NCBI GenBank assembly: GCA_023663725.1
Contig: JAMPGX010000004.1
Location: forward strand, 178,476-242,475
Source of the DNA: a bacterium
GTDB taxonomy: Bacteria > Bacillota > Clostridia > Lachnospirales > Lachnospiraceae
Length of the DNA: 64,000 bases
Reading direction: 5' to 3'
The position numbers were made by a program, and so were the translations under genes. This document shows positions 11,248 through 64,000 of this stretch, in pieces. The notes under the pieces are model-generated. The model was not told the origin of the DNA, did not search any database, and saw only the letters and a list, made by a program, of their open reading frames with translations. Each line of letters starts with the position of its first letter. The stretch's first letter is position 1.

Positions 11248-11399
11248 TAGACAATTGCAAAACCCTTTTTTGACAGTACCGAATTGTGTATATTGTATAT
11301 TCCATAAGCAATGCCTTTTTGATCCGAAAGCGTGCTTGCGTTGGAATGTACAATGTGCACAATGACACTAGCATAGTAACTGGCTTTCGCGAATGCCTA
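11248..11399 (+). mobile_element. MITE-like palindromic element, copy 1 (deleted core)
   Basis: A 152-bp non-coding element between two genes. Its ends are imperfect inverted repeats (TAGACAATTGCAAAAC on the left; the right end reads TTTCGCGAATGCCTA). Inside, the stem ATTGTGTATATTGTATATTCC pairs with GGAATGTACAATGTGCACAAT. The central branched part found in copies 2-4 is missing. Flanking 11-mers AGTAAAGAGAT (11237-11247) and AGTATAGAGAT (11400-11410) match at 10 of 11 positions, as a decayed target-site duplication would. Confidence 0.75.
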
Positions 11400-11423
11400 A
11401 GTATAGAGATAGCCAACAGGAAA

Positions 11424-12668
11424 ATGAACGATCATATGAATGGAGAAAAGCAAAAAGAGAATAGAGAGACAGGCGGCAAGCTCCTGGACGTGGGAATATT
11501 TCTGGTATGTCTGCTGGTCTATGGAGGGCTGATGTTTCTGAATTTCCGCCAACAGGCCATAGGGCTGGTGGAATCGGACATGGAGGCATATATCCAGGAG
11601 ATGCTGGGCACGAACACAAAGTATGCCTTTCCCTATCCGGTGTATTTCAGACTGGGAGCGTTGATTCATATGGTAGTCTCCAGCCCCCGCTACAGCATGG
11701 CCATAGCTGCCGTGTTACTGTGTCTGGGCAGCGCCGTAGCGCTGAAATATTATGTGGACCGAGAGATCAGGGCAGCCCGGAGAGAGGCGGGGCAGCAGGC
11801 GAGCTGGTGGCAAGGACTTCTGGGCACAGCGGCGGCTTTCTCGCTGCTGCTGGTTTCCATGCTGTATGTGCCCTCGGGATACCGTTTTCAGGGAATCCCT
11901 TTCGCCTATGTGGGGGTGTTTTCCCCCAATCCGTTTCACAATGCCACCTACAATGCGGCCAGGCCCTTTGCCATTGTGAGCTTTTTTCTCTTCGGGGCCA
12001 TATTGTCGGAGTACGAGACGAGAGCAGACTGGAAGAAATATATCGGTTTTTCCCTCTCTCTGCTGCTCGCAACCCTGACCAAACCCAGCTTTACCCTTGT
12101 GCTGGTGTCGGCGGCAGGGCTTGTCATGCTATGGCGGCTGATTCGCAGCAAGGGCAGAGGGTTTACAGCCGCCCTGAAGCTGGGCCTGACCTTCATCCCC
12201 ACCTTTGCCGTACTGCTCTATCAGTTCGTGGGCGTGTTTGGTCCGGCGGAGCAGGAGGGGGGAATCGGCTTTGGATTCCTGACGGTGTGGAGACACTACT
12301 GCGACAATGTCCCTCTTGCCCTGCTGTTGGCGGCGGCCTTTCCGCTGACCGTGCTGCTCTGTCATCTGAGGGAGCTGGGCGGCCGGGGGCTTCTGCGTTT
12401 TTCCTGGCAGTTCTATCTGGCGGGTCTGGCGGAGTTCATCTTCCTGTATGAAAAGGGCTTTCGGCTGGTGGACGCCAACTTCAGCTGGGGATATATGTAT
12501 GGGCTTTTCTTTGTGTTTGCCTGCTCGCTGCTCGTGCTGATCAGAGATAGCCTGCAGCGCAGAGGCCGCCTGTGGGCAAGGCTGCTGCAATGGGGAATGT
12601 ACGGGTTGCATCTGCTGCTCGGAGTCTATTACCTCTATGGAATATTGTCGGGCGCGAGCTATTATTGA
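11424..12668 (+). CDS. polytopic membrane protein, GT-C-like
   Basis: A 414-residue protein with about ten membrane segments. After the first segment comes GLVESDMEAYIQ, an acidic first-loop motif like those of the neighbouring GT-C candidates; the soluble tail of the neighbours is missing. The frame stays open leftwards through the repeat element, but that part is not conserved protein, so ATG 11424 (after AACAGGAAA) is taken; ATG 11436 is possible. Probable outer-face glycosyltransferase of unknown specificity. Confidence 0.55.
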   Translation: MNDHMNGEKQKENRETGGKLLDVGIFLVCLLVYGGLMFLNFRQQAIGLVESDMEAYIQEMLGTNTKYAFPYPVYFRLGALIHMVVSSPRYSMAIAAVLLCLGSAVALKYYVDREIRAARREAGQQASWWQGLLGTAAAFSLLLVSMLYVPSGYRFQGIPFAYVGVFSPNPFHNATYNAARPFAIVSFFLFGAILSEYETRADWKKYIGFSLSLLLATLTKPSFTLVLVSAAGLVMLWRLIRSKGRGFTAALKLGLTFIPTFAVLLYQFVGVFGPAEQEGGIGFGFLTVWRHYCDNVPLALLLAAAFPLTVLLCHLRELGGRGLLRFSWQFYLAGLAEFIFLYEKGFRLVDANFSWGYMYGLFFVFACSLLVLIRDSLQRRGRLWARLLQWGMYGLHLLLGVYYLYGILSGASYY

Positions 12669-12709
12669 CGGGTAAAACAGAGGCAGCGCCGCAGAAAGGG
12701 AGAGAGCAA

Positions 12710-14287
12710 TTGAAGGATAGAGTGCTGGATTGGTTGAAAGCCAGATGGACTAAGGAAAATAAAAGCTTACTGTGCAAGGCGGGGCTGATGGCGCTGCTTC
12801 CCCTGCTGTGCTGCGTCATTACCTGCACCGTGGACGGAGGGAGTATCGGACAGGTGTATCTGCCCCTGTCTGAGTGGAATGATGAGCTTTTCTATTTCAA
12901 GCAGGTGGAGGGTATTCTCTCACACGGATATCCCCAGGGGTATTTTGGCTTTAACGAGAGCCATGCGCTGAAGCTGTCGTTCGCCGCCTGGAGTCCGGTG
13001 CTGGTATGGCCCTGGGTGCTGTACGGGCTGATCTTTGGCTGGAACCTGATGACTCCTATCTACAGCAATATCTTATTTCTCACGTTGACTATCGTGATTT
13101 TCGTGCTGCTGGTCAAGCCGGACTGGAAGCAGCTGGGACTGTTATCCATATTATTCTGTGTATTTGCTCCCTTTGTGCGCTATATGCTGTGCGGTATGCC
13201 GGAGATCATCTGCTTTAGCATGTTGATCGTGTATGTGGCGCTGCTCATCAGCTATCTGGATAAACCGGGGAATGGCAGACTGGTGCTCATGTTTATTCTG
13301 GCAGGATTAATGACTCTCATGCGCCCCTATCTGATTCTCTTTCTGCTGATGCCGTCGTGGTTGTGGATTCGCAGGAAAAGAGCGGTGGGGATTGTGGGAT
13401 CGCTGGGGATACTGGGAGCTGTGGGCGGCGTGTATCTGGCGGTCAACCATTATCTCGGCGCCGCATATTTTACTCCACTGTTCAAGACTGGCTGGCTGGA
13501 GCCCTTCCTGCAGGGACATCTCCTTAAGGGAATCAGGGGCATATTGGCTACGCTGTATTATGAGGGGCGAACGTTTTTCGCCATTATGCGCCAGGGACTT
13601 GCGAGCGGTCTGGCGGAGGGAGCGTTTTTTGCTGGATTTCTGGCGATGCTGGTGATACTGCTCTGGCAGACCGTGTCGGATCTGCGGCATAAGCGCAAAA
13701 ACAAGGCGCTGCTGCACGGGTATCTCGCGTTCTGTTTTATCAGCATGTGGGCCGCGCTGCTGCTGATGTACAAGATGAAGGAGGGCAGCAAGCATCTGCT
13801 GACTTTTATGGCGGCGGGGCTCTTTGTGATCGCGCTGATGGAGACCAGGTATTTTAAAAAGGCTATGCTGCTCGGCGCGCTGTGCGTCTATCTGTTCTGG
13901 GTCAAGGGCGATCAGCCCTATGATTACGCGATTCCCTATCAGACGCAGGAGCAGGCGGACCGGCTGGTATATTGGGAGGATGTATTTGAGAGCCGTCTGA
14001 CATTGTCCGAGGAGGAGGTCCCGAACTATGACAATGTCGTCATATGGACCTTCAACGATCTGGTGGGGGAGGACATGGTATTGACGGACTGGCAGATTCT
14101 ATATGCCTTACCGGAGGGCTGGGGGATTAGCTGCTGTTATAACGAGTATGTGTTGGAGCATCTGGAGGAGCTGCAAAGCCTGTATCTGCTGATTCCTGAC
14201 GGCGGGCGGATACAGGGGGCCTGCGAGGAAGCGGGCATGGAGCGGATAGGCGGCGACGGCAGAGCCTGTGTATATCGCACCAGATAA
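12710..14287 (+). CDS. polytopic GT-C-like membrane glycosyltransferase
   Basis: A 525-residue membrane protein. A first membrane segment (about 22-40) is followed by LSEWNDELFYFKQ, an acidic first-loop motif, then about ten segments and a soluble tail of about 110 residues ending near VYRTR. TTG 12710 is chosen because GGGAGAGAG precedes it by 7 bases and the peptide then begins KDRVLDWLKARW; the open frame further upstream overlaps the previous gene and has no good ribosome site. Predicted outer-face transferase; substrates unknown. Confidence 0.6.
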   Translation: MKDRVLDWLKARWTKENKSLLCKAGLMALLPLLCCVITCTVDGGSIGQVYLPLSEWNDELFYFKQVEGILSHGYPQGYFGFNESHALKLSFAAWSPVLVWPWVLYGLIFGWNLMTPIYSNILFLTLTIVIFVLLVKPDWKQLGLLSILFCVFAPFVRYMLCGMPEIICFSMLIVYVALLISYLDKPGNGRLVLMFILAGLMTLMRPYLILFLLMPSWLWIRRKRAVGIVGSLGILGAVGGVYLAVNHYLGAAYFTPLFKTGWLEPFLQGHLLKGIRGILATLYYEGRTFFAIMRQGLASGLAEGAFFAGFLAMLVILLWQTVSDLRHKRKNKALLHGYLAFCFISMWAALLLMYKMKEGSKHLLTFMAAGLFVIALMETRYFKKAMLLGALCVYLFWVKGDQPYDYAIPYQTQEQADRLVYWEDVFESRLTLSEEEVPNYDNVVIWTFNDLVGEDMVLTDWQILYALPEGWGISCCYNEYVLEHLEELQSLYLLIPDGGRIQGACEEAGMERIGGDGRACVYRTR

Positions 14288-14339
14288 CGAGGCGGACGGG
14301 CTATCAGCGATACGAAGGTATATCCATTGGAGCGGGGGG

Positions 14340-15896
14340 ATGGACAGACGGATGAAGCAGATACCAGAGGTAGTCGAAAAAATATGCGTGAAGGCGGTGC
14401 AGGCGATCATTCTGATCATCAGCCTGGGGCTGAGCTATGAGGCGGTTCGGTATACTCACGGTTATCCTCTGTCCCTCGGGGAGGATATGATTCTGATTGA
14501 GCCGGACTCGGCGGTGAGGAATCTTCTGATCTTCTGTCTTGTGCTGGCGGCGGCATGGCTGTTGCAGAGAGTGGTGCTGCGGGGGACACAGGCCGCGATC
14601 AAAAAGCGTGTGCGCGCGATTGCGATAGTAGTCACTCTGCTGACAGGAGTATTGCTTGCCGTCTGGGTGTCCATCTGTCATATTGCGCCGACCTGGGACC
14701 AGCTACAGGTCTATCTGGACGCTCTGGACTTCAAGGCGGGGAATTTTCATGATATGACGGGTTATCTGCAGATGTGGCCGCAGCAGTACGGACTGACTTT
14801 TCTGTATGAGATATTTCTGGCTTTTGGCGGAGGATACCGGTTGCTGCAATATATCAATGTGCTGATGGTCATGTGCATCATATGGTCCTCCTATCTGCTG
14901 GTGGAGGAGCTCTGTGGGGATGCCAGAGCCTCTCTGTATGTCGTTATCGGGGATGCGCTCTTTTTCCCGATGTGGCTCTATGTCAATTATGTGTATGGCG
15001 AGTTGCTGTCCATAGGTTTTTGTATGCTGGGAATCTGGCTGCTGATACGCTGGTGTCATGTGCAGAAAAGGAGGTACGCCGTCTGGTCGCTGTGCGCTCT
15101 GAGCGTGGGAACGCTGGCCCGAATCAATGTGCTGATCGTTCTGATCGCGGCCTGCATCGCCATGCTGATACATAGCCTGCAAAAGCGCAGCCTGGGGAGA
15201 CTGTTGATGGCTGTGCTCGTCATATTGGTGCCGCTGGGAGCCGTCGGCGCCGTGCGTCTGGGCTATGAGCTGCGATCGGGGATAGCGATCAGGGGAGGTA
15301 TCCCCGCCAGCGCGTATGTCGCCATGGGGATGCAGCGCTCGGATGGAGGTCCGGGGGTATATAATGGGTATAATAATTCGATGTACAGGGGCGAGGCTGA
15401 CAGCGACAGGGACAAGGCCAATGAGATCGCCATGGACTATATCCGGCAGCGGGTACAGGAATTTTCGGCTGACCTTAATATGACGAAGGACTATTACAAG
15501 GAGAAGGTGCAGGTGCAGTGGAACGAGCCGACTTTCGGCAGCCTGGTGATGACATCGACCTTTGAGAGAGAGCCAGAGGGTATCGTGCAGAAGCTCTACT
15601 ACGGCAACTGGCAGCAGCGTTATCGAGACTATATGAACCGATATGTGACGATACTGTATCTGGGAGTACTCCTGTACTGTGTGTTGGGCCTGCTGCGCAG
15701 GACGGATATCCTGCAATGCCTGATGCTGATCGGGGTGATCGGCGGATTCCTGTTCAGTATTCTGTGGGAGGCCAAGTCGAGATATGTGTTGCCTTACGCC
15801 CTTCTGCTGATTCCCTATATGGCGTGGGGGATCGCCGCTGCACAGGCCTATGCCGGAGGACTGCTCCGCAGCTTCAGGCAGGGCAGGAAAAACTGA
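14340..15896 (+). CDS. polytopic GT-C-like membrane glycosyltransferase
   Basis: A 518-residue membrane protein with about 12 segments. The loop after the third segment carries PTWDQLQVYLDALDF, followed by GYLQMWPQQYGLTFLYE, a pattern seen in membrane mannosyltransferase-like proteins of the GT-C class. A large outer loop near 330-440 (from the SDGGPGVYNGYNNSMYRGEA region) precedes the last segments. ATG 14340 follows TTGGAGCGGGGGG; an upstream ATG at 14268 overlaps the preceding gene and is not favoured. Function is inferred from topology and context only. Confidence 0.55.
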   Translation: MDRRMKQIPEVVEKICVKAVQAIILIISLGLSYEAVRYTHGYPLSLGEDMILIEPDSAVRNLLIFCLVLAAAWLLQRVVLRGTQAAIKKRVRAIAIVVTLLTGVLLAVWVSICHIAPTWDQLQVYLDALDFKAGNFHDMTGYLQMWPQQYGLTFLYEIFLAFGGGYRLLQYINVLMVMCIIWSSYLLVEELCGDARASLYVVIGDALFFPMWLYVNYVYGELLSIGFCMLGIWLLIRWCHVQKRRYAVWSLCALSVGTLARINVLIVLIAACIAMLIHSLQKRSLGRLLMAVLVILVPLGAVGAVRLGYELRSGIAIRGGIPASAYVAMGMQRSDGGPGVYNGYNNSMYRGEADSDRDKANEIAMDYIRQRVQEFSADLNMTKDYYKEKVQVQWNEPTFGSLVMTSTFEREPEGIVQKLYYGNWQQRYRDYMNRYVTILYLGVLLYCVLGLLRRTDILQCLMLIGVIGGFLFSILWEAKSRYVLPYALLLIPYMAWGIAAAQAYAGGLLRSFRQGRKN

Positions 15897-15914
15897 GAAC
15901 GGGAGAGTGTTGGC

Positions 15915-16454
15915 ATGTGTGTGTACGGAGAGCCGGGGGCGGCGATATATCTGCGCCCGATGACATATGAGGATACGGATCTGATCGTGTCCTGGCGCAA
16001 CCAGGAGGCGGTGCGCAGGAACTTCATCTATCAGGAGCTGTTCACCAGAGAGAGCCATGAGCAGTGGATTCACACCATGGTGGAAACCGGCAAGGTGGTG
16101 CAGATGGTCATCTGTGAGACGGAGGGAGGACGGCCCGTTGGCTCGGTGTATCTGCGGGATATCGACAGGCGGCATAACAAGGCGGAGTACGGTATCTTCA
16201 TCGGCGGAGAGGGAGCCAGAGGCAAGGGCTATGGGACGGTGGCAGCGCGATTGATGATCCGCTACGCGTTCGAGGAGCTGGGGCTGCACAGGCTGTTTCT
16301 GCGGGCCTTCGCGGACAATGAACAGGCGATCCGCAGCTATGAGAAAGCGGGATTTGAGCGGGAGGCCTATCTGCGGGAGGATGTCTGTATTGAAGAGCGC
16401 TACCGGGACATCGTACTCATGGGGGTGCTCAATCGGGAACATAGGTTGCTATAG
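15915..16454 (+). CDS. GNAT family N-acetyltransferase
   Basis: A 179-residue acetyltransferase of the RimJ/RimL-like GNAT group: IYLRPMTYEDTDLIVSWRN at the N-terminus, the acetyl-CoA loop motif GEGARGKGYGTVA near 98-110, and NEQAIRSYEKAGFE near 135. Two roles fit the locus. It could acetylate the 4-amino group of UDP-4-amino-4,6-dideoxy-L-AltNAc (PseH step of pseudaminic acid), or the 4-amino group of dTDP-Fuc4N made by the WecE homolog at 36239. Sequence alone does not decide. It lies between a GT-C candidate and a GT2, away from both sets of pathway genes. Confidence 0.75.
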   Translation: MCVYGEPGAAIYLRPMTYEDTDLIVSWRNQEAVRRNFIYQELFTRESHEQWIHTMVETGKVVQMVICETEGGRPVGSVYLRDIDRRHNKAEYGIFIGGEGARGKGYGTVAARLMIRYAFEELGLHRLFLRAFADNEQAIRSYEKAGFEREAYLREDVCIEERYRDIVLMGVLNREHRLL

Positions 16455-16485
16455 ACATGCAAAACTTTCAATAAAGGAATAGGAT

Positions 16486-17439
16486 ATGATGGAAGGAAAG
16501 ACAGTTAGCTTTGTGATTCCCTGCTATCGCTCGGAGCATACGATTGGCAAAGTGGTGGCGGAGATTCATGCGACAATGGCAGAGATCGGGCAATATACCT
16601 ATGAGATCATCTTGGTGAACGACTGCTCGCCCGACGGGACATGGGCGGCGATCCGTGGGCTTTGCCAGGAGGATGAGCGCATCAGAGGGATTAATTTTGC
16701 CCGGAATTTTGGACAGCATGCGGCTTTGATGGCAGGGCTGAGGCAGTCTGTCGGAGCGTATGTGGTCTGTCTGGACGATGACGGGCAGACACCGGCGGAC
16801 GAGGTGGGAAAGCTCCTCGCCGCGCTGGAGGATGGCTATGATGCGGTCTATGCCAGCTATGCCCATAAGCGGCATTCCCTGTTTCGCAATCTGGGCAGCA
16901 GGGTGAACGAGCTGATGACCCGCATCATGCTGGAAAAGCCCAGGGAATTGTTTGTGTCCAGCTATTTCGCAGTGTGCCGGTTTGTGGTGGAGGATATGAT
17001 CCGCTATGAGAATTCTTATCCCTATGTGATCGGCCTGGTGCTGCGCGCCACGAAGAATATTACCAATGTGGAAGTGAATCACAGAGAGCGGCAGGAGGGG
17101 AGCTCCGGATATACGCTCAAGAAATTGTTTTCTCTGTGGTTCAACGGCTTCACGGCATTTTCTGTGAAGCCGCTGCGGATTGCCACGGCTGTCGGCTGTA
17201 TCAGCGCCGCTGCGGGCTTTATCTATGGATTGTATACCATCGTCAAGCGCCTGTTGAATCCTCAGGTGCCAGTGGGCTTCAGTTCCACGATGGCGGCCAT
17301 TGTCTTTTTCGGAGGGATGATCATGATCATGCTGGGCATGATCGGGGAGTATATTGGCCGGATCTATATCAGTATGAATAACTCTCCTCAGTATGTGATT
17401 CGCGAGCGAATCAACGCGCGAAAAGAGGGCGCGGAATGA
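16486..17439 (+). CDS. GT2 polyprenyl-phosphate sugar synthase (ArnC/GtrB-like)
   Basis: A 317-residue protein: a GT-A domain starting VSFVIPCYRSEHTIGKV, with VNDCSPDGTW and the metal site LDDDGQTP near 96-103, then two membrane segments near 232-256 and 266-290. This is the layout of ArnC, GtrB and DPM1-type enzymes, which attach a sugar to undecaprenyl phosphate on the cytoplasmic side. It is the second such enzyme in this operon and may supply donors to the GT-C candidates upstream. The next gene starts within its stop (ATGA overlap at 17436-17439). Confidence 0.8.
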   Translation: MMEGKTVSFVIPCYRSEHTIGKVVAEIHATMAEIGQYTYEIILVNDCSPDGTWAAIRGLCQEDERIRGINFARNFGQHAALMAGLRQSVGAYVVCLDDDGQTPADEVGKLLAALEDGYDAVYASYAHKRHSLFRNLGSRVNELMTRIMLEKPRELFVSSYFAVCRFVVEDMIRYENSYPYVIGLVLRATKNITNVEVNHRERQEGSSGYTLKKLFSLWFNGFTAFSVKPLRIATAVGCISAAAGFIYGLYTIVKRLLNPQVPVGFSSTMAAIVFFGGMIMIMLGMIGEYIGRIYISMNNSPQYVIRERINARKEGAE

Positions 17440-18953
17440 GGAGCTGGAGAAGGTGGGCGGCCGCAGCGGTCATCATGCTGATCAGCATTGCAATGCTCGC
17501 GCTGCTGTTCGTGAGGCCGCAGATCATGAGTACCTCGGCTGCGGTGTATGATGGGCGCAATGTCAAGCTGATATGGGAGGACTTGCATTATGACCGAAGG
17601 ATAAAGCTGATACAGGCCGATCTGGATGCCCTGCGAGGTAAGCAGTATTCGGCCCTGTTTCTGTCCATGTATCCAATCGAGACCTATGACGAAGGTTTGA
17701 TCTCTCACTGGAGGGGGCTGGAAATATTCAAGGCGAAAACGACTGTGGAGAACGGTCGGGAGCTGGCGGGAACTTTGGCATATCTGCTGGAACAGGGGAC
17801 CTTGCCAGACCTGGTGCTGCTGGGGCTGGACCCCGAGTGCTTGGAGGATAACTATCCGCTGAAGGATTCGCTGCTCAAGGCGCTCGGTCAGACTCCCGAC
17901 ACGATGTGGGAGATATTACTTGCGAGTCCCTCCATGTCGTATTGGCGCGGCAAGGAGGACGGTGAATGGCAGGCGGCGCTTGACCGCTACGAGAAAGCGG
18001 TAAGGCTGCTGGTGAGGGAGGACAATGTCAAGCTTTTCTATGCCTGTGACAGGGAATGGCTGGTTTGCAATGACAGCAACTATGCGCGTGAGAAGATACT
18101 GGCCGAGAATGCGGCGCGGGCGCTGCTGGGCTACTATACCAGCAACCAATATCTGCTGACGGAGGAGAATATGGAGCGGAGCATGGCCGCTGCCAGAGAT
18201 TTGGTTGCCACATGGCGTACTGGCGACAGGCATGTGGATGGGTTACAGGGCAAGACGCTGGTGTTCATGGGAGACAGCACGTTTGGCCACTATACGGATT
18301 CTCTTGCCATCACAGGCGTGGTGGAGGAATTTACCGACGCAAGGGTGGTGAATTGCGGATATGGGGGGATGACGGGTACATATGGCGAGTTTTCGGGAGT
18401 CACTCTGGGCGATCTGCTGGATGCGATAGAGGTGCCTGACGGCTTTTTGAGCGGCGAAGGAGTAGGCGGACAGCCGGCTCTGGACGCGCTGCCAGAGCTT
18501 CATCAGCTGGCGGGCGCAGGGGAGAATGTGGTATTTTTTCTGGATTACGGTATCAATGACTATATTGGCGCCCTCCCTCTGCGCGGGGAGGACGATCATG
18601 ATGCTCACACTTATGTCGGCGCCATGAGGACGGCGATAGAGAGACTGCAGGAGATGTTTGAGGGCAGCAGGATCGTCCTGGTGACGCCCCATTTTATCCG
18701 GTACAACAATAACGGCAACAATCCGGTGGGCGAGGCGGGAAATGTGTACGCGGATTATGTGGAGGCCGTCAGGGAGCTGGCGCGGGAGTACGCTCTGCCA
18801 ATACTGGATTTTTATGGAGAGCTGGGCATCAGCGAGGACAATTGGCAGGAGCGCCTGGGGGATGAGGTTCACCCCAATGAGGCGAGTCGTTTTGACATGG
18901 GCATGGCGGTGCTGGAGCTGCTCAAGGAAATGTTTCCGCAGGCGGGCCCATAA
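17436..18953 (+). CDS. membrane-anchored SGNH/GDSL-type protein 1
   Basis: A 505-residue protein with one N-terminal membrane anchor (about 7-27) and an outer part of two regions: an N-terminal domain of about 240 residues of unknown type, and a C-terminal SGNH hydrolase domain. The catalytic blocks are complete: FMGDST near 278, NCGYGG near 306, DYGIND near 369, and DEVHPN (the Asp-His pair) near 475. SGNH enzymes in surface glycan loci remove or transfer O-acyl groups. It overlaps the preceding GT2 by four bases, so it belongs to the same operon. A paralog of the same design follows. Confidence 0.75.
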   Translation: MRSWRRWAAAAVIMLISIAMLALLFVRPQIMSTSAAVYDGRNVKLIWEDLHYDRRIKLIQADLDALRGKQYSALFLSMYPIETYDEGLISHWRGLEIFKAKTTVENGRELAGTLAYLLEQGTLPDLVLLGLDPECLEDNYPLKDSLLKALGQTPDTMWEILLASPSMSYWRGKEDGEWQAALDRYEKAVRLLVREDNVKLFYACDREWLVCNDSNYAREKILAENAARALLGYYTSNQYLLTEENMERSMAAARDLVATWRTGDRHVDGLQGKTLVFMGDSTFGHYTDSLAITGVVEEFTDARVVNCGYGGMTGTYGEFSGVTLGDLLDAIEVPDGFLSGEGVGGQPALDALPELHQLAGAGENVVFFLDYGINDYIGALPLRGEDDHDAHTYVGAMRTAIERLQEMFEGSRIVLVTPHFIRYNNNGNNPVGEAGNVYADYVEAVRELAREYALPILDFYGELGISEDNWQERLGDEVHPNEASRFDMGMAVLELLKEMFPQAGP

Positions 18954-18969
18954 AAAGGTGTGGAGAGCA

Positions 18970-20478: not shown

Positions 20479-20507
20479 AGAGGGATGCCGGTTAAGGGCA
20501 TCCCTCT
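20479..20507. terminator. shared hairpin between convergent genes
   Basis: AGAGGGATGCC (20479-20489) and GGCATCCCTCT (20497-20507) form a perfect 11-bp stem with a 7-base loop. It starts one base after the stop of the + gene and ends 12 bases before the stop of the minus-strand pseC, so it can serve both directions. Neither side has a long T run. Confidence 0.6.
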
Positions 20508-20519
20508 CGCATAGTGGAG

Positions 20520-21713: not shown

Positions 21714-21757
21714 GATAATCCCTCTTTTCTGTGTCAACGGTCGTTTATTCTGCGTCT

Positions 21758-30269: not shown

Positions 30270-30489
30270 TAGGCAAAAGTAAAACTGTTTTTTGCCAGTA
30301 CCGAATTGTGTATATTGTATACTCCAAAAGCGGGTTCTTTCGAACTGTCGGTACTTAGCGAGGTCTGCCGAATTTATTCGGCACGAGCTTAGTACCGCTA
30401 CAGTGAGAACGAAGCGAGAGCGTGCCCGCGTTGGAGCATACAATGTACACAATGACACTAGCCAAGCAACTAGCTTTCACAAACGCCCA
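30270..30489 (+). mobile_element. MITE-like palindromic element, copy 2
   Basis: A 220-bp non-coding element of the same family as copies 3 and 4. Outer ends are degenerate (TAGGCAAAAGTAAAACTG against TTTCACAAACGCC). The middle stem is ATTGTGTATATTGTATACTCC with GGAGCATACAATGTACACAAT. The inner stems are ACTGT/ACAGT, GGTACTTAGC/GCTTAGTACC and the hairpin TGCCGAAT-TT-ATTCGGCA. Flanks CAGTGAAAA (left) and CAGTGCAAAAA (right) look like a decayed target-site duplication. It separates the GT2 gene from pseF. Confidence 0.8.
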
Positions 30490-33704: not shown

Positions 33705-33847
33705 TAGGTAATTGCGAAACAACTCTTTTCTGGAACAGGGAATGGGCAATATATATAAAATAAGGGCGACTTGCCACTGCATCGGAGCCCGTTTTTGTAT
33801 ATATTGACCAGTCCCGTCACTTGCGGAGAGAGTTTCGCAATTGACTA
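33705..33847. mobile_element. MITE-like palindromic element, copy 5 (short type)
   Basis: A 143-bp non-coding palindrome with the same ends as copies 1-4 (TAGGTAATTGCGAAAC and GTTTCGCAATTGACTA) but a different core. The core is one long hairpin: CAATATATATAAAA plus GGGC on the left pairs with GCCC plus TTTTTGTATATATTG on the right. Perfect 10-bp direct repeats GGTGATATAA flank it (33695-33704 and 33848-33857), so it looks like a recent insertion between the GtrII-like and GtrB-like genes. Confidence 0.85.
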
Positions 33848-34874: not shown

Positions 34875-35090
34875 GGGGCAAATGCGAAACTGTCTTATGC
34901 CAGTACCGAATTGTGTAGCTTGTATATTCCATAAGCAGGCTCTTGAAAAACGTCAGTGCTTAGCGAGGTTTGCCGAATTTATTCGGCGCGAGCTTAGTAC
35001 TGTTACGTTTTTCACGAAGCGAGAGCGTGTCTGCGTTGGAATATACAAGCTACACAATGACACTCGCAAAGTTACCTTCACAATTACCAA
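34875..35090 (+). mobile_element. MITE-like palindromic element, copy 3
   Basis: A 216-bp non-coding element. The middle stem is perfect over 22 bp: 34910-34931 with 35037-35058, containing TAGCTTG / CAAGCTA where copy 4 has CATGTTG / CAACATA. The next inner stem is also perfect: GAAAAACGT (34945-34953) with ACGTTTTTC (35005-35013), replaced in copy 4 by ACCGT / ACGGT. The flanks CTAAGTAGTC (34865-34874) and CTAAGTGGAC (35092-35101) match at 8 of 10 positions, a decayed target-site duplication. Confidence 0.82.
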
Positions 35091-39826: not shown

Positions 39827-39844
39827 AGCGACATCAAAGAGTGA

Positions 39845-40065
39845 TAGGCAATTGCGAAACTGTTTATTGCCAGTACCGAATTGTGCATGTTGTATATTCC
39901 ATAAGCAATGCCCTTTCGAACCGTCGGTACTTAGCGAGGTCTGCCGAATTCATTCGGCACGAGCTTAGTACCACTACGGTGAGAACGGAGCGAGAGCGTG
40001 CTTGCGTTGGAATATACAACATACACAATGACACTTGCATAGTAACCAAGTTTCGCAATCGTCTA
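39845..40065 (+). mobile_element. MITE-like palindromic element, copy 4 (best preserved)
   Basis: A 221-bp non-coding element with 17-bp terminal inverted repeats (39845-39861 and 40049-40065, 15 of 17 matching) and exact 11-bp flanking direct repeats TCAAAGAGTGA (39834-39844 and 40066-40076). Inside, 39880-39901 pairs with 40008-40029 (21 of 22), ACCGT with ACGGT, GGTACTTAGC with GCTTAGTACC (one mismatch), and TGCCGAAT-TC-ATTCGGCA closes the centre. It has no coding capacity, which fits a MITE moved by a transposase encoded elsewhere. Confidence 0.9.
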
Positions 40066-40099
40066 TCAAAGAGTGAGTATAAAAGGAGGGGAAGAGGCC

Positions 40100-52947: not shown

Positions 52948-52959
52948 CAGGAACATGTT

Positions 52960-53799: not shown

Positions 53800-53850
53800 T
53801 GACATTCGATGCTTCGGGCGCGGCCCGCGGTATTTGTGAAGAGGGAAAAG

Positions 53851-55134: not shown

Positions 55135-55168
55135 GCGAGCAGATCAGTCTATGAGGAAGGTAGCGGAT

Positions 55169-57247: not shown

Positions 57248-57279
57248 ACATAATTTGAACAGGATGCGGAGAGAGTCTA

Positions 57280-59400
57280 ATGCAACTTGGAATTAAGGCA
57301 AAGCTGAGAAACCTTAGGGAAAAACAATTGAACAGGCAGTATGTGGGCAGGCTGGCGCGGGCAAAGCGCCAGATATCCTATGAGGACTGGCTGCGCCTGG
57401 TGGCTTGCCAGCAACCGCAGATAGGGCTTTCGTACCGCACAGGAATCATAACAGATGTTTTGAATGTGGCGAATCGGAATGAGACTCAGCAGGGCTTTGC
57501 CATGCTGAAGGAACAGGGGATATCGCTGATCCTGCAAAGCGGCGGTTATGTGGATCCGATGGCTTTTGCCTGGATTGCGGACTACTTCAGGGAGCACCCG
57601 CAGGCGCAGCTTCTTTATGGAGACGAGGACGTGTTGAGCCTGACGGGGAAGCACAGAAATAGTCCCTGCTTTAAGCCGGATTGGTCTCCGGATACCTGGC
57701 TGTCCTGCTTTTATCTGGGGAGCGTGATCGCCCTGCGCCGAGAGCTTGCGGCACCCTTTCAGGAGCTCTGGACACAGAGCGATGAGGATGTGCTATGCTT
57801 TGAGCGTCCCGAGCAGGTGCGTCTGTTGGTTCATCAGCTGCTCAGGCGGGCGGGCGGGTTTGAGAGGGACTGCGATACAGTCGCTCATCTGCGCGGCATG
57901 CTGTTCCATATGAGCTATGACGCCGCTCAAAATGGCAGGCAGAAGGCCTATTGGCAGGAGGATGGATTTGGCAGGTCAGGGGAGCTGTTGCGGAATGCGG
58001 TATCCGGAGATAGCCGACCGGTTACCATATCCGTTGTTATCCCATCCAGGGATAATCCCGATGTGCTGGAGCAGTGTTTGAACTCTCTGCGCAAATGTCA
58101 GGAAAATATTGGCAGTACCGAAAACGCAGTGGGGAATATGGAAGAGGAGAGCCCCAAGCAGCGTTACCAAATGGAGTTTCTGGTGATTGATAACGGGAGT
58201 ACTCCTGAAAACAGACAGAAAATCCAAAAAATAACATGCGGAATGAAATATATATATGAGCAAATGCCGTTTAATTTCTCCAGAATGTGCAATCGGGGAG
58301 CACAGGAAGCCAGTGGGGAGATATTGCTGTTTTTAAATGACGATATCACAGTCTGCGCGGACGGTTGGCTGGAGGCCATGGCGGACCGCGCGCTGCGCCC
58401 CTATGTGGGGGCGGTGGGGTTGAAGCTCTATTATCCGGATTGCACGACGATTCAACATGCAGGCATTGCGAATCTGCCGGGAGGACCGGTTCACAAGCTA
58501 CAGTTTACGGTGGATGGTCAGGAGGAGGACTGTGGTTATGGCAGTCTGGACCGCAATGTGATCGCTGTGACCGGCGCATGTCTGATGGTGCTGCGCGATC
58601 GGTTCCTGCAGGCAGGAGGGTTCCCAGAGGATTTGCAGGTGGCATATAACGATGTGGAGCTATGCCTCCGACTGCGGGAGGCAGGCTGGCACAATATGGT
58701 GGTCAACAGCTTTCACGCATATCATCATGAGTCCTTAAGTCGCGGCAGTGATCTGACGAGGGAGAAAATGATGCGTCTGCGCCAGGAGAGGGAAACGCTC
58801 TACCGTCGACATCCTCAATATGTGGGCTTTGACCCCTATTATTGGGACCCCCTGTGTACCGAGCTGGGGAATACGCATGTTTTTGCACAATATCTGGATA
58901 TTCGGACTGAGCTGCAGAGTGCGCTCCCGCGTCGGAGGCGGCTGGCCAGATATCCGGAGCGGGAGCCAGAGAAGCTTGTCTTCACGATGAAGCTGTATCC
59001 AGAGCTGGAACATAGGCCCCCCTCGGGATATGATATGGGAGACAGATGGTACTGTCTGCGGGGTTACCTGGTGGTAAAATGGGAGAATAACGCATGTTAT
59101 AAAAGATATCTGCTTCTGAGGGCTCAGAAGCAGGCGAATGAGGTATACATTATTCACCTGCGCGCCGGGTACAGCAGAGAAGCTGAGTATGGAGCGCAGG
59201 AGCAGCCCAATGTAGCGATGTGTGGCTTTGTGCTGACACTGCCACATGGCTGTCTGCCGGACGGCCTCTACCAAATCGGTATACAGGCTCGCAGCCGAGT
59301 TGGTCGACGCAGCTTGACCGCGTGGACGGAGCATTGGCTGCAGATCAGGAATGGGATGCCGGTTCCAGGAGATAATAAACTGATACAGGAATCCGTATAG
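57280..59400 (+). CDS. large GT2 family glycosyltransferase
   Basis: A 706-residue protein. The N-terminal region (1-240) looks like an incomplete GT2-like domain (LLYGDEDVL near 107 and FKPDWSPDTWLSC near 127). A full GT2 domain runs about 247-500: TISVVIPSRDNPDVLEQCLNSL, IDNGSTPENR, FNFSRMCNRGAQEASGEILLFLNDDI near 328-355, and YNDVELCLRLREAGW near 450. A C-terminal domain of about 150 residues follows. Such double-domain enzymes build rhamnan or O-antigen backbones next to Wzm/Wzt. The linkage and sugar are not readable. Confidence 0.82.
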   Translation: MQLGIKAKLRNLREKQLNRQYVGRLARAKRQISYEDWLRLVACQQPQIGLSYRTGIITDVLNVANRNETQQGFAMLKEQGISLILQSGGYVDPMAFAWIADYFREHPQAQLLYGDEDVLSLTGKHRNSPCFKPDWSPDTWLSCFYLGSVIALRRELAAPFQELWTQSDEDVLCFERPEQVRLLVHQLLRRAGGFERDCDTVAHLRGMLFHMSYDAAQNGRQKAYWQEDGFGRSGELLRNAVSGDSRPVTISVVIPSRDNPDVLEQCLNSLRKCQENIGSTENAVGNMEEESPKQRYQMEFLVIDNGSTPENRQKIQKITCGMKYIYEQMPFNFSRMCNRGAQEASGEILLFLNDDITVCADGWLEAMADRALRPYVGAVGLKLYYPDCTTIQHAGIANLPGGPVHKLQFTVDGQEEDCGYGSLDRNVIAVTGACLMVLRDRFLQAGGFPEDLQVAYNDVELCLRLREAGWHNMVVNSFHAYHHESLSRGSDLTREKMMRLRQERETLYRRHPQYVGFDPYYWDPLCTELGNTHVFAQYLDIRTELQSALPRRRRLARYPEREPEKLVFTMKLYPELEHRPPSGYDMGDRWYCLRGYLVVKWENNACYKRYLLLRAQKQANEVYIIHLRAGYSREAEYGAQEQPNVAMCGFVLTLPHGCLPDGLYQIGIQARSRVGRRSLTAWTEHWLQIRNGMPVPGDNKLIQESV

Positions 59401-59474
59401 GATGAAGCTGTATAAGAGTTGAGACAGTAGATGTGCGCGGTGGGATACATTGCGCCGTGCGAGGAAGGGAAGAC

Positions 59475-61550
59475 ATGGCAGATATAGATTATCAAGAGGC
59501 ATATGAGAGGGAAAAGGAGCGCTGCGCCCAGCTTGCGGACAAGCTCTCGCAGTTGGAGCTGGAGCGGGATATGCTGCGGGACAATCTCAATTTCATACAT
59601 AACAGTGTTTTCTGGAAGCTGAGCAAGCCTGTACGCAAGGTGATCCATTTTTTTATTCGGCAGTGCGCCCGCATCAGACGTGTACTGCATCCGAGAGACC
59701 TGATCAGAAAGCTGAAATATAAGAGGCGGGAGAGGCTTGCCAGCCGGCAGTTTGGTATGGCCAGCTTCCCTGATCAGGAGACCATTCGTACACAGCGGGA
59801 AGCCGTCTTTTCTAATAGGGTCAAATTCAGTATTCTGGTGCCGCTTTGGAATACGCCGCAGCAATTTCTGACAGATATGATATCGTCTGTTATGAATCAA
59901 ACCTATGCCAATTGGGAGCTATGTCTTGCAGATGGCTCTGATGATGAGCACAGTTATGTGGAAATGCTCTGTCAAAAGTATGTCGAAGAAGCTGGTGGCA
60001 GAATTATTTATCATCGATTGGATAAAAATGAAGGAATAGCAGGGAATACCAACCAGTGTTATGCTTATGCCACAGGGGACTATATCGGTCTGCTGGATCA
60101 TGATGATGTCCTGCATCCCTGCGCTCTGTATGAATATGCCAGGGTCATTAATGAAACAGGAGCGGATTTCATCTATTGCGATGAGGCAACCTTTAAAAAT
60201 GGCAGCATAGACAGATTGGTCAATCTGCATTTTAAGCCGGATTATGCTCCGGATACCCTGTGCGGCAATAACTATATCTGTCACTTTAGCGTCTTCTCCA
60301 GACATCTGTTGGAGGAGGATGCGGAGCTGTTCCGTACCAGTCTGGATGGCAGCCAGGATCACGATATGATCCTGCGCCTGACAGCTCGGGCCCAAAGGGT
60401 GTATCATGTGCCCAAGCTTTTGTATTATTGGCGCAGTCATGAGGGCAGTGTGGCATCCGACATTGAGGCCAAGCCCTATGCGGTGGAGGCGGCCAAACGA
60501 GCCGTGTCGGATCATCTGGAGAGACAGGGCTTCAGCCATTTTCAGATCAGCAGCACCAGAGCGTTTCCGACAATATTCCGGATTCGTTATCAGGTGGAGG
60601 GCAATCCCAGGGTGTCGGTGATCATTCCGAACAACGAGCACCGAGAGGAGCTGAAGCGTTGCGTGGGATCCATTCTGGAGCGTTCCACTTATGACAATTA
60701 TGAGCTTGTCATCGTGGAGAATGGCAGCGCATCGCAGGAAATCAAGGAGTATTACTCGGAGCTTCTGGGATACGATTATGAGCAGGCTCTTCGGGATGGC
60801 AAGGCGGAGAGACGTTCCACAGATTCCAGAGACGGCGGCTGTCTGACAAAGAAGTCCTCCGGCGCAGGGGAAGCGCCGGTGAAAATTGCAATATATAATG
60901 ACGGCTTTAACTATTCCGCGGTCAGCAATCTGGGAGAGAAGTATGCCGATGGAGATTATGTGCTGTTGTTGAACAATGATACACAGGTGATCACCTTCTG
61001 CTGGATCGAGGAGCTGCTGATGTATGCTCAGCGGGAGGATGTGGGTGCGGTGGGAGCTAAGCTATATTATGGAAACCATACGATTCAGCATGCGGGGGTA
61101 GTGATCGGTATGGGCGCCCATGGCACTGCCGGTCATAGTCATTATCAGCTCGGCTATCAGGACCTGGGCTATATGGGCCGTCTGTGCTATGCCCAGAACG
61201 TGTCCGCAGTCACGGGCGCCTGCCTGATGGTCAGAAGGAGTCTGTATGAGCAGGTGGAAGGACTGGATGAAAGCTTTGCCGTATCCCTGAACGATGTGGA
61301 TTTCTGCCTGCGGCTGCGGGAGCTGGGCAAATTAAATATCTTCACTCCCTTTGCGGAGCTGTATCATTATGAGTCCGAGTCGCGGGGAGATGACGTCCAT
61401 GGCGAGAATGCCCTCCGCTATGACGAGGAGGCGGCTCGATTCAGAGAGCGCTGGAAAACATTGCTCGAGCAGGGAGATCCCTATTTTAATCCGAACTTTA
61501 CACTGGAGCGAAGCGATTATCAGCTCAAGCTCCCCGATTCTGATCGATAA
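59475..61550 (+). CDS. large double-domain GT2 glycosyltransferase
   Basis: A 691-residue protein. Residues 5-45 form a coiled coil, then a basic stretch. The first GT2 domain (about 115-360) has KFSILVPLWNTP, LADGSDD, GLLDHDDVLHP near 207-217 and SQDHDMILRL near 293. The second (about 377-640) has RVSVIIPNNEHREELKRCVGSIL, VENGSASQ, LLLNNDTQVI near 499 and LNDVDFCLRLRELG near 603. Both DxD sites are intact, so two different linkages or an alternating backbone are possible. It is the last gene of the Wzm/Wzt operon and resembles the previous gene in its second domain. Confidence 0.85.
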   Translation: MADIDYQEAYEREKERCAQLADKLSQLELERDMLRDNLNFIHNSVFWKLSKPVRKVIHFFIRQCARIRRVLHPRDLIRKLKYKRRERLASRQFGMASFPDQETIRTQREAVFSNRVKFSILVPLWNTPQQFLTDMISSVMNQTYANWELCLADGSDDEHSYVEMLCQKYVEEAGGRIIYHRLDKNEGIAGNTNQCYAYATGDYIGLLDHDDVLHPCALYEYARVINETGADFIYCDEATFKNGSIDRLVNLHFKPDYAPDTLCGNNYICHFSVFSRHLLEEDAELFRTSLDGSQDHDMILRLTARAQRVYHVPKLLYYWRSHEGSVASDIEAKPYAVEAAKRAVSDHLERQGFSHFQISSTRAFPTIFRIRYQVEGNPRVSVIIPNNEHREELKRCVGSILERSTYDNYELVIVENGSASQEIKEYYSELLGYDYEQALRDGKAERRSTDSRDGGCLTKKSSGAGEAPVKIAIYNDGFNYSAVSNLGEKYADGDYVLLLNNDTQVITFCWIEELLMYAQREDVGAVGAKLYYGNHTIQHAGVVIGMGAHGTAGHSHYQLGYQDLGYMGRLCYAQNVSAVTGACLMVRRSLYEQVEGLDESFAVSLNDVDFCLRLRELGKLNIFTPFAELYHYESESRGDDVHGENALRYDEEAARFRERWKTLLEQGDPYFNPNFTLERSDYQLKLPDSDR

Positions 61551-61589
61551 ACCGAAATGTATTATACAATATAAAGAATGGTTTTTAAC

Positions 61590-61640
61590 ATATGGTTAAG
61601 GATGGCGGAAGATATATTTAAAGCTATTGCTTAGCCATAT
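61590..61640 (+). other. hairpin at the end of the exporter operon
   Basis: ATATGGTTAAG (61590-61600) pairs with CTTAGCCATAT (61630-61640) over 11 positions with one G-T pair and a 29-base loop. It could help to end the upstream transcript, but no T run follows directly, and the right arm overlaps the -35 box of the next promoter. Confidence 0.4.
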
Positions 61641-61656
61641 TTCAGTATGCTATATT
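61627..61656 (+). promoter_or_regulatory. promoter of the lipoprotein gene
   Basis: TTGCTT (61627-61632), 18 bases, TATATT (61651-61656), with TGC directly before the -10 box (extended -10). The leader before ATG 61704 is about 40 bases. Confidence 0.55.
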
Positions 61657-61703
61657 TTTCCTGACAGATGCAACTATATTATTATCAGGAGGAGACAAGG
61701 CAT

Positions 61704-63881
61704 ATGAAAAAGCGGTATTTGTTGCTTGCTCTCGTCTGCCTGCTTTTGACCGGATGCAGTATGGGAGAAGGTGCGCAAGCGGGGACAGAGACAGAAGCAG
61801 ACAAGGTAGAAGAGCACAGGGAAAGCGCTTCCCTGGAGCTGCCGGCGGAGGGTAACTCGCAGGGAAACAAGACATATTATGTGGGAAAGGTGGACACGTT
61901 GCAGTTTCAGGAGCCGGAGAAAGGATACACGGAGCATGCCGCGTCCTACAAGGTGATCGGCGACCATATCTATATGATTCGGGTGGAGAGCAAAGCGGGC
62001 GGAAGCGTGTCGAGGGTGTGCGTGCAGTCTTATGATGTGGTTGCGAAGGATATGCGGCAATACCTGATTGAACCTGAGATTTCGGGGCATGAAAACAGCG
62101 GTATCTATTCGGCAGATCTCACGGCAGGCCTGGAGCTGTCGCTAAAGATGTGGGATGCGGGCGACGAGGACGCATTCTATCTGGTCAGGATGAATCTGGA
62201 GGGGGAGGTCCTGAGAGTGGAGGACGCTTTCCCCGAGGGCGCGTATCCCTGGAATCAGGATATGTGGTCCAATGTGAAAGCTTTTGATTTATCCGACGGC
62301 AGGACAGTCATCTGTCGCAATGATTTTGAGACGTTTACCTCCAGTCTGGCCTGGTATCAGGAGGACGCGGGGGAGGATCCTCTGGGGACGCTGAACAATG
62401 AGAGCGTACAGGCTATGACGGTTGACCAGGAGGGAACGCTGTACTATCTGGGCGGGGAAGGTCTGGTTCGCTATGACGCGGAGCATAATGCGCGGGAAGT
62501 ACTGTTCAGGGCGTATGAAAACGGGATTGAGATAGGTTTATCCGAGTGCGGCATAGCGATGAATGACAAGGGGCAGTTCCTGCTGTGTGTGATGAAGGAG
62601 GGAAAGGCCAGCATATATTTGCTGGCAGATGAGGAGACTTCCGACGAGGATAAAATACGGTTATGCAGCCTGCAGGGGCGCGCGGGCATCTACTATTTTC
62701 AGACGCTGGCCGCAAGCTTTCAGCAGAATGGCGGCAATGTCCGCATTGGGTTGGAGCTCGAGGAAAAGGAGGAATATCAGGAGGACTACCGCACCCGAAT
62801 ACTGGCGGAGCTGACAGCCGGAAAAGGACCGGATATCCTGTATGTATCGCAGCAGGATATGATGCTGCTTCAGGATAAGGGGCTGATCTGTGACATCTCG
62901 GAAATGATTCCGTCAGAGGTAAAGAGTGAACTGATTCCGGGAGCGCTGGAGTTGGGAACTGTGAATGGGGAGCTGGTGGGATTGGTTCCGGAGGTATCCT
63001 TCACGACGATGTCCGTCGCCAATCAGGTCTGGGATCAGGACAGTTGGACGATAGATGATTTTGTCGAGCAGTTGGGGGCGAAGGAGGACTGGGAACTTCC
63101 GGTCAACTGGTCAGGCTTTTCGCTGAGCCCTGGAACAATGTTTCGCATCCTCTTTTCCGATTTGGCAGACTCCTTTGTGTTGAATCTGGAGCAGGGGACC
63201 TGTGATTTTGACAATGACAGGCTGATTCATATTTTAGAGTTCTGTAAGAAGTACGGAATCACCGGTGAGAATTCTTCGGATCAACAGCTCAGTCAGGACG
63301 AGCGTATGCGCATGTTCAGAGATGGGGAGATGGCGGCGGAGGTCCAATACCTGTATGGGGATCTGGATATGTTCTCCACGATCATGGCGAGAAATGGCGA
63401 GGACTGCCATATTGTGGGATATCCCACGGAAAAGGGCAGCGGCAACTATGTGGACAGCTATTCTTACGGCTATCTGGTGATCAATGCCCAGAGCAAATAT
63501 AAGGAGGAGATCAAAAAATATTTTGCACTGTTGCTGGACTATGACAATCAGTTTAAAACCAGCGGCTGCAGCGTCAGAATGGATGTGCTGAGAAACTGCG
63601 TGGTATATCATGAATTCGAGAAAACCTACTATAAGATATACTCTTATAATGAGGATCAACCCACATATCAGTCGATAGATTTAAAGCCGGACGGCACGCC
63701 GTATCTGGAGGAGTTTCTGGAGTTTGTGGCCGGCTGTAGGCCGATGCCCTATTGTCCATCTGAGATTGAACAGATTGTATACGGGGAAATCAATCTGTTC
63801 TTTGACGGCAGTAAGAGCGCGGAAGAGACGGTCAAGGTTATTCAGAGCAGAATAAAACTATATCTGGATGAAATGAAATAA
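61704..63881 (+). CDS. solute-binding-type lipoprotein with extra N-terminal domain
   Basis: A 725-residue lipoprotein. The signal peptide ends in the lipobox LLTGC (Cys18). About 45-310 is a repetitive region with turns like ASYKVIGDHIYMIRVES, EDAFYLVRMNLEGEVLRVE and VDQEGTLYYLGGEGLVRYD, which suggests beta-propeller blades. About 325-725 resembles a family 1 extracellular solute-binding protein: LAASFQQNGGNVRIGLELEEK, RTRILAELTAGKGPDILYVSQQDM near 370 and GEMAAEVQYLYGD near 545. Sugar-binding is likely for this family. No permease gene follows in the window. ATG 61704 follows AGGAGGAGACAAGG; it has its own promoter. Confidence 0.78.
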   Translation: MKKRYLLLALVCLLLTGCSMGEGAQAGTETEADKVEEHRESASLELPAEGNSQGNKTYYVGKVDTLQFQEPEKGYTEHAASYKVIGDHIYMIRVESKAGGSVSRVCVQSYDVVAKDMRQYLIEPEISGHENSGIYSADLTAGLELSLKMWDAGDEDAFYLVRMNLEGEVLRVEDAFPEGAYPWNQDMWSNVKAFDLSDGRTVICRNDFETFTSSLAWYQEDAGEDPLGTLNNESVQAMTVDQEGTLYYLGGEGLVRYDAEHNAREVLFRAYENGIEIGLSECGIAMNDKGQFLLCVMKEGKASIYLLADEETSDEDKIRLCSLQGRAGIYYFQTLAASFQQNGGNVRIGLELEEKEEYQEDYRTRILAELTAGKGPDILYVSQQDMMLLQDKGLICDISEMIPSEVKSELIPGALELGTVNGELVGLVPEVSFTTMSVANQVWDQDSWTIDDFVEQLGAKEDWELPVNWSGFSLSPGTMFRILFSDLADSFVLNLEQGTCDFDNDRLIHILEFCKKYGITGENSSDQQLSQDERMRMFRDGEMAAEVQYLYGDLDMFSTIMARNGEDCHIVGYPTEKGSGNYVDSYSYGYLVINAQSKYKEEIKKYFALLLDYDNQFKTSGCSVRMDVLRNCVVYHEFEKTYYKIYSYNEDQPTYQSIDLKPDGTPYLEEFLEFVAGCRPMPYCPSEIEQIVYGEINLFFDGSKSAEETVKVIQSRIKLYLDEMK

Positions 63882-63882
63882 A

Positions 63883-64000
63883 TAGCCGATTGCGAAACTC
63901 TTTCCGCGAGTGACGGAATTGATCAATATAACCAAAATGGGCGCGAAAGGGGCTGTGAAAAAAGTCCCCAACCAAAAAAAGAACACTTTCAGGAATAAAC
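63883..64000. mobile_element. start of a sixth palindromic element (short type, cut by window end)
   Basis: TAGCCGATTGCGAAACTCTTTCCGCGAGTGACGG-type sequence at 63883-63916 and ATCAATATA after it match, in the opposite orientation, the right arm of the short-type element at 33705-33847 for about 55 bases. It begins one base after the stop of the lipoprotein gene. The match ends near 63941. What follows (GGGGCTGTGAAAAAAGTCCCC, 63949-63969) may be a different element inserted in it; the rest is outside the window. Confidence 0.6.

Follow-up and report, generated by a model that had tools for sequence, protein, structure and literature searches.

The window analysed here, a stretch of 64,000 nucleotides that ends where its contig ends, contains short repeated elements that are 143-221 bp in size, lack a transposase gene and have terminal inverted ends of 16-17 bp, with 16-bp forms that are close to TAGGCAATTGCGAAAC on the left and TAGNCGWTTGCGAAAC on the right. 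A first-pass annotation had listed six such elements, and the ends that it described are present at all six places. One copy of the branched kind, type A, is E5 (39845..40065, plus strand, 221 bp), which has a structured core at 39872-40035 and is flanked by exact 11-bp copies of TCAAAGAGTGA at 39834..39844 and 40066..40076. Two more type A elements on the plus strand, E2 (30270..30489, 220 bp, core at 30297-30459) and E4 (34875..35090, 216 bp, core at 34902-35064), have decayed target repeats, with 8 of 9 positions alike at E2, and in E4 the ends have decayed as well. E3 (33705..33847, plus strand, 143 bp) is a single hairpin, type B, with an exact 10-bp repeat, GGTGATATAA, on each side and with further type B copies elsewhere in the genome. 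E1 (11248..11399, plus strand, 152 bp) is not a separate kind of element but a type A element minus the centre of its core; the core remnant at 11275-11369 scores 85 bits against the core model, and the flanks, AGTAAAGAGAT and AGTATAGAGAT, form a decayed direct repeat that is alike at 10 of 11 positions. The annotated direct repeats thus stood as described, exact at E3 and E5 and decayed at E1, E2 and E4. Of E6 (63883..63944, minus strand), only a right half of type B is present, its first ~60 bp matching that half of the 143-bp type in reverse; from about position 63947 it is interrupted by the end of another repeat (63947..64000), of which there are 7 more occurrences in this genome, most of them at the ends of contigs. 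The other half of E6 is out of view because the contig ends with the window, and a complete element or a complete insertion sequence (IS) at this place was ruled out.

This gut bacterium has dozens of copies of the elements. A search of the genome with the end pattern yielded 113 matches as compared to 18 for a reversed control, and 68 end pairs at distances of 70-330 bp were found within the 272 kb that we fetched around matches from the whole genome, confirming the observation of repeated elements with common ends. Their description as spread through one glycan locus was too narrow, and a role confined to the glycan cluster could be rejected because copies are located on many contigs. We scored 70 copies for target repeats and left out 25 with imperfect ends; of the remaining 45 with both ends clean, 24 were flanked by repeats of 10-13 bp, as compared to a mean of 0.05 and a maximum of 1 in a control with re-paired flanks, while 21 had no clear target repeat. 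The duplication of about 11 bp that had been proposed from the window is therefore beyond chance, and a chance origin of the repeats is excluded by the end-pattern control together with the re-paired flanks.

We also compared the window insertions with orthologous junctions in up to 7 relatives, a comparison that is between species. E4 was absent from the orthologous junction in all 7 relatives for which both flanks were found and E5 in all 5 such relatives. There was no element at the orthologous E2 junction in genomes G064 and G021 and no such element at the E3 junction in G130, G021, G136 and G064. None of the junctions without the element contained an end scoring above 5.1, the cut-off used elsewhere being 8-9. 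A different palindrome is located at the orthologous E3 junction in G064.

A full-length IS with matching ends, which the annotation had suggested should be looked for, was found as an element of 1.75 kb that encodes a DDE transposase of 485 amino acids, carries ends like those of the short elements along with target repeats of equal length, and occurs mostly in Lachnospiraceae, including this genome; its ends keep the same form across genera. From 86 transposase loci, 56 were examined and 55 reported, and 45 copies in other genomes with clean, distinct ends were counted. Target repeats of 9-13 bp were present in 35 of these (control 0.06), 33 of them exact and most commonly 11 bp long, while 10 copies had no clear repeat. 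In the genome studied here, the transposase gene is located at C44:70-1524 and the IS ends at the start of contig C33 and near C44:1664. These two contigs are joined only by an overlap of 55 bp and the flanks are not repeats of each other, so the two ends may belong to different copies. The transposase matched DUF772 (4.4e-11), and its best curated match was the NCBIfam IS1182 model at 78 bits, short of the curated cut-off of 270. In an alignment from which 2 of 48 supplied sequences were left out because of stops, with identities of 63-87%, the DDE catalytic triad was conserved as D147 in 46 of 47 sequences and as D288 and E427 in 47 of 47, as were Y420, R423 and K434. The transposase had no match in phage records. 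The short elements are probably moved by the enzyme of this larger element with the same ends; the copies, the target repeats, the absences at orthologous junctions and the IS together support the earlier proposal of non-autonomous elements that have two core types and depend on a single transposase with a target duplication of about 11 bp.

The spacing of neighbouring elements and the nature of the type A core were unexpected findings. In the fetched part of the genome there were 19 back-to-back end pairs less than 72 bp apart, 18 of which were separated by 8-14 bp and one by 2 bp, with none from 15 to 71 bp and nine more at 72-194 bp. Junctions at IS loci had spacings of 11, 11 and 15 bp, and among the matches listed for other genomes, with spacings of 0-30 bp allowed, one set contained 9 places at 9-13 bp and the other 10 at 10-14 bp, as compared to 0 in both sets for the reversed control; there was no match to the junction pattern in viral contigs. 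Outer flanks could be assessed for 26 of 31 junctions, leaving out 5, and the spacer was clearly identical to the outer flank in 11 of them (control mean 0.38, maximum 3), three of which share one locus (L284), while 15 had no clear outer repeat of the spacer. One ladder consisted of four elements and five copies of a single target, the last two slightly altered. Since the spacing approximates the length of the target repeat and the spacer is often repeated outside, new copies appear to be placed flush with ends that are already there, thereby building ladders. Tandem duplication by recombination is an unlikely source of the ladders because adjacent elements frequently differ in type.

The core of type A was examined in an alignment of 49 of 62 type A rows from this genome and 6 copies from genome G017, with 26 copies used in a later step. 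It forms a branched hairpin that is maintained by compensatory changes, with strong covariation that includes the inner helices, and all 61 aligned copies have a GNRA loop, which occurs in six versions (GAGA, GAAA, GCAA, GGGA, GGAA and GCGA). The core was found in 152 of 397 Lachnospiraceae genomes, often without recognisable ends of the MITE kind, for which reason the term MITE does not explain everything. A search of Rfam 15 gave 0 matches at the gathering score in the window and sub-threshold ones only in other loci scanned; a known RNA was thus ruled out at this threshold, the single overlap being sub-threshold and on the opposite strand.

Palindromes of the REP/BIME or ERIC kind, not transposed by this IS and with common ends by chance or descent, would also be short, intergenic and high in copy number. 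Such an origin is very improbable given the exact duplications of 10-13 bp, the full IS with like ends and repeat length, and the absence of elements from orthologous junctions. The ladders might also reflect target preference, in that a favoured 11-mer is simply hit again and the resident end is irrelevant. The clear ladders do have the same 11-mer as spacers, and the targets are AT-rich, with a GC content of 0.23 for 35 IS targets and 0.30 for 25 MITE targets. Against this stand the 18 of 19 close pairs at the characteristic spacing, and base counts per position revealed AT-richness but no strong consensus, so that repeated hits in an identical register are in our judgement unlikely. We consider target preference to be an improbable cause of the ladders.

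For type A, it is rather doubtful that the element serves first of all as a structured RNA, be it gene or regulator, with incidental ends and copies kept by host selection. The strong covariation, the invariable GNRA loop and the wide distribution of the core are in line with such a role, as are an excess of G-U over A-C in helix 1 (78 versus 13 in 55 copies), a plus strand that folds better than the minus strand in 45 of 55 copies, and a bias of the copies between same-direction genes in this genome towards the sense orientation (29 sense, 14 antisense; gene direction unresolved for 7 of 61 copies). Yet many copies with ends have target repeats, the window copies are missing at orthologous junctions, and G-U pairs are scarce for an RNA helix, with 78 of 2839 cells. 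The orientation is reversed outside this genome (6 sense, 15 antisense; 2 of 33 unresolved), which indicates that there is no consistent place in a transcript and does not support a sense-strand regulator of downstream genes, as the copies in this genome would suggest. Covariation in the basal stem might instead be a product of repair, if one arm of a quasi-palindrome is overwritten with the sequence of its partner by template switching, which would give each copy perfect arms of its own. This is how the arms in genomes G431 and G433 could differ among copies of one genome and still be almost perfectly paired next to the core, with pairing that decays outward in G431, and 2641 of 2839 cells in the helices are Watson-Crick pairs. 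However, the inner helices covary too, the GNRA loop is present in all copies, and arm copying does not predict an excess of G-U over A-C; repair is an unlikely explanation of the pattern.

We therefore favour, with considerable confidence, an explanation as a whole in which the short elements are non-autonomous transposons that are moved in trans by the IS, dock at resident ends to form ladders and carry an older structured core as cargo. The IS transposase would bind the shared ends and move the short elements in trans and, as suggested by the spacing, would also recognise an end that is already inserted. To place the next element, the enzyme would cut one strand where the resident element ends and the second strand some 11 bp further out, so that with every event these 11 bp are duplicated once more and the ladder grows. 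The core of type A would be an older structured element carried by the transposon family. A more specific version, which we regard as possible but somewhat short of an even chance, is that resident ends serve as a ruler, by which the target duplication of each new copy starts right at the tip of an older one and ladders of identical 11-bp rungs arise in safe intergenic havens, and that the passenger carried most often is a structured RNA, found across the family, with a conserved branched GNRA core and copy-specific palindromic arms, which may have more than one kind of carrier.

These results suggest which transposase drives a repeat family that has many copies in common gut bacteria and provide a testable landing rule, by which the next copy is placed one target-duplication length from a resident end; if true, this would let a transposon multiply while leaving genes intact. 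For RNA biologists, the structured core, which reached no Rfam threshold in the loci scanned, is a new motif to test and a natural case in which to separate selection on structure from palindrome repair. No published account of the element family was found among the matches listed, as judged by titles and the beginnings of abstracts from a collection with few subscription journals and with ISfinder outside its scope.

Similarities to several known systems are partial. Members of the IS231 group of IS4 have a target repeat of 10-12 bp and the motif Y-(2)-R-(3)-E-(6)-K, both of which resemble the IS described here, whereas their ends and sequence family differ, and there was no IS4 model among the domain and family matches listed for the transposase. 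REP and BIME sequences are likewise high-copy structured palindromes in intergenic positions, but the elements in this study are longer and have DDE-type ends and target repeats. Bacterial MITEs are similarly short, without a transposase gene, with inverted ends, target duplications and a full IS with similar ends; the differences are the ladders and a core that is separately distributed as a structured element. The main text of a review (PMC10969869) is without mention of IS1182, Clostridi-, Lachnospir-, Firmicutes or tandem. The IS1182 family, with IS1272 and relatives, provides the best curated match and also has a DDE enzyme from a single long open reading frame, although the score far below the cut-off makes the relation distant. 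IS1272 is described in one study as replacing a stem-loop, unlike canonical transposition with target duplications (PMC5678879); this mode, which does not apply to all IS1182 members, contrasts with the 9-13 bp duplications in most IS copies examined here. Another source describes that new copies of IS30 and IS911 target the ends of resident copies and that, for IS30, this yields a joined IR-IR junction, with insertion elsewhere duplicating 2 bp (PMC9333248). Compared with that description, insertion at resident ends is shared, here as judged by junction spacing, whereas there is no joined IR-IR in our data, the spacers being 8-14 bp in 18 cases and 2 bp in one, and in many cases the spacer is a target duplication in its own right.

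All six elements claimed by the first-pass annotation were found in the window, at positions 11248-11399 (E1), 30270-30489 (E2), 33705-33847 (E3), 34875-35090 (E4), 39845-40065 (E5) and 63883-63944 (E6). E1 is a copy of type A (about 216-221 bp, with a branched structured core) from which the centre has been deleted, and E6 is half of a copy of type B, the 143-bp single-hairpin form with the same 16-bp inverted ends, and is interrupted by another repeat. The interrupting sequence at 63947-64000 is the terminus (GGGGCTGTGAAAAAAGTCCCC...) of a different multi-copy repeat, which also ends several contigs of the genome. With E5 as the query, more than 40 places were matched in this 3.63-Mb draft genome of 49 contigs, and the end pattern with at most 2 mismatches gave 113 matches versus 18 with the reversed control. 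In 272 kb of sequence from the same genome, picked around matches and hence no random sample, 68 pairs of ends were located 70-330 bp apart, mostly with lengths of 200-228 bp (type A) or 143 bp (type B). Flanking repeats of 10-13 bp were present in 24 of the 45 copies with two clean ends in this genome, as compared to a mean of 0.05 and a maximum of 1 for randomly paired flanks.

The shared ends enclose a different interior at the starts of two other contigs, C33 and C19. C33 overlaps by 55 bp with C44, the contig containing the window, and onward in C44 follow a gene for a 485-aa transposase, the single match to this protein in the genome at E 1e-10, and a second end, GTTTCGCAAACGCCTA. When titled genomes were scanned, 114 relatives came up, and the 79 loci kept were from sources mostly titled Lachnospiraceae, Clostridia or genera such as Roseburia inulinivorans, Blautia massiliensis, Lacrimispora and Lachnoanaerobaculum, with one record titled Bacteroidales; 7 more loci were in viral contigs. 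These insertion sequences (IS) are mostly about 1.75 kb long, with ends close to TAGGCGTTTGCGAAACGCC 5' of the gene and TAGGTAATTGCGAAAC 3' of it. A target repeat was seen in 35 of the 45 IS copies with clean, distinct flanks (control 0.06), and was exact in 33 of these, most commonly 11 or 12 bp long (range 9-13). The transposase matches the DUF772 domain and contains the residues D147, D288 and E427 and the pattern Y-(2)-R-(3)-E-(6)-K. Among curated models, the one that matches it best is IS1182, with a score far short of the cut-off. The kind of element and the target duplication proposed beforehand are both borne out by the flanking repeats and by an IS with the same kind of ends. The elements make up a new set of MITEs, whose IS1182-like partner was recognised by its ends and repeat length.

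In related species, both flanks of E2, E3, E4 and E5 are kept and the element is missing. This applied to all relatives with both flanks (7/7 for E4, 5/5 for E5, 4/4 for E3 and 2/2 for E2), in a comparison between species with about 20% DNA difference, which shows element absence and is too diverged for a single-copy target to be read. No end at these orthologous junctions scored above 5.1, and the longest match to type A or B was 11-12 bases. At the E3 junction in one relative (G064, locus L267) a different palindrome is present. It belongs to the same family as a palindrome of about 100 bp (TATACTGACTAACGTTAAG...) with an apparent TA target, which cuts a type A copy in contig C29 of the own genome (locus L127, 17200-18300, at about 432-536) and presumably resembles MITEs of the IS630/Tc1 type.

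Back-to-back elements tend to form ladders, spaced by one target-repeat length. In the fetched own-genome sequence, 18 right ends were followed by the next left end after 8-14 bp, one after 2 bp and nine after 72-194 bp, with no spacings of 15-71 bp between neighbours. Among 86 IS loci, back-to-back ends no more than 300 bp apart occurred only at 11, 11 and 15 bp. An exact junction pattern permitting any gap of 0-30 bp matched five of 397 genomes of the family (control 0), with gaps of 10, 11, 11, 11, 13, 12, 9, 9 and 11 bp at nine distinct places among the matches listed; G300, a genome of another genus, had seven such places, five of them among the matches listed. A looser pattern identified twelve places, two of them in the own genome, in seven of 138 genomes of the genus, with gaps of 9-14 bp (control 0). 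The spacer was repeated in the outer flank at 11 of the 26 junctions with a readable outer flank (random reassignment: mean 0.38, maximum 3). The best ladder, in contig C44 of G300, is a row of four elements (143, 209, 50 and 143 bp) in which ACAAAATGTCT or its variant ACATAATGCCT occurs five times, once in each gap and once at either outer edge. Ladder neighbours are frequently of different types, and type A contributed 18 left ends and 6 right ends to the 18 own-genome junctions. In the G300 ladder at locus L284, the 50-bp element is little beyond its two ends, and the 143-bp elements of G300 (L284, L281, L286) have the exact length of type B at 67-71% identity. The simplest mechanism for ladders would be docking of the transposase on the end of a resident element, with one strand cut at the resident tip and the second strand about 11 bp further out.

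The type A core has a wider distribution. With a covariance model built on the core and excluding the ends, and with no more than 7 copies per genome scored, matches at E 0.001 came from 152 of the 397 genomes of the family, representing 133 of 334 genera. When genomes were drawn from the whole phylum, 5 of 398 matched at 1e-6; four of these belong to the own family and the fifth to another. Among 61 core copies from 31 genomes (one to seven examined per genome), ends of the IS family were recognisable on both sides in 16 copies from 11 genomes and on at least one side in 23; shuffled flanks gave 0 for both sides. No Rfam family matched at threshold in the window or in the other loci scanned. 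Two-core loci are mostly head to head (7/8: L289, L291, L309, L313, L316, L324 and L325; the exception is L295).

In an alignment of 55 type A copies, 49 from the own genome and 6 from G017, both sides change in some copy at 25 of 44 predicted pairs, with double-sided change in 155 cells (shuffles: 38) and pairing in 98.2% of cells (shuffles: 92.0%). The 22-bp basal helix contains G-U 78 times and A-C 13 times, and by RNA energies the plus strand folds better than the minus strand in 45 of the 55 copies. Across the 61 core matches, in an alignment that was fitted to the covariance model and so favours the structure, both sides change at 44 of 47 pairs and 95.8% of cells are paired, versus 66.1% in shuffles and 27-46% with slid partners. 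The loop of the small hairpin is GNRA in 61 of 61 copies, in six versions. The apical hairpin occurs in several exchangeable versions. In some type A copies (L024, L025), an additional hairpin module (CGTGTTACGGTTTGTAACCGTAACACCAC) or a different apical hairpin, out of a set of several, is present, as if modules were being swapped.

Outside the own genome, the basal stem varies from copy to copy, even inside one genome, yet pairs near-perfectly. The arms extend 45-70 bp further in G431, at 66-85% identity, and the outer arms are weak in G433 and G473. At G431 loci L294 and L318-L322, the core copies lack the shared ends and have long palindromic arms that are specific to each copy. Perfect, copy-specific arms could arise without selection if one arm were copied onto the other during replication, but this would leave the G-U excess, the inner covariation and the GNRA loop unexplained. 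Both the GNRA loop and the surplus of G-U pairs argue for the plus strand taking a single-stranded form, most simply RNA. A fixed regulatory role is disfavoured, because type A copies are oriented 29 sense to 14 antisense to neighbouring genes in the own genome but 6 to 15 in other genomes. In both sets, convergent gene pairs around the copies (0 in the own genome, 2 elsewhere) are rarer than divergent pairs (11 and 8), which is the pattern that insertion into AT-rich promoter regions would give.

The two parts worth following are the rule for ladder spacing and the structured passenger with its independent distribution. For the former, IS30 provides a precedent in that it targets its own ends; it produces joined ends (PMC9333248), unlike the spaced ends of the ladders. 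As for the IS itself, IS1272 of the IS1182 family is described as replacing a stem-loop with no canonical duplication (PMC5678879). Since the IS identified here instead duplicates a target of 9-13 bp, we have not filed it under IS1182.
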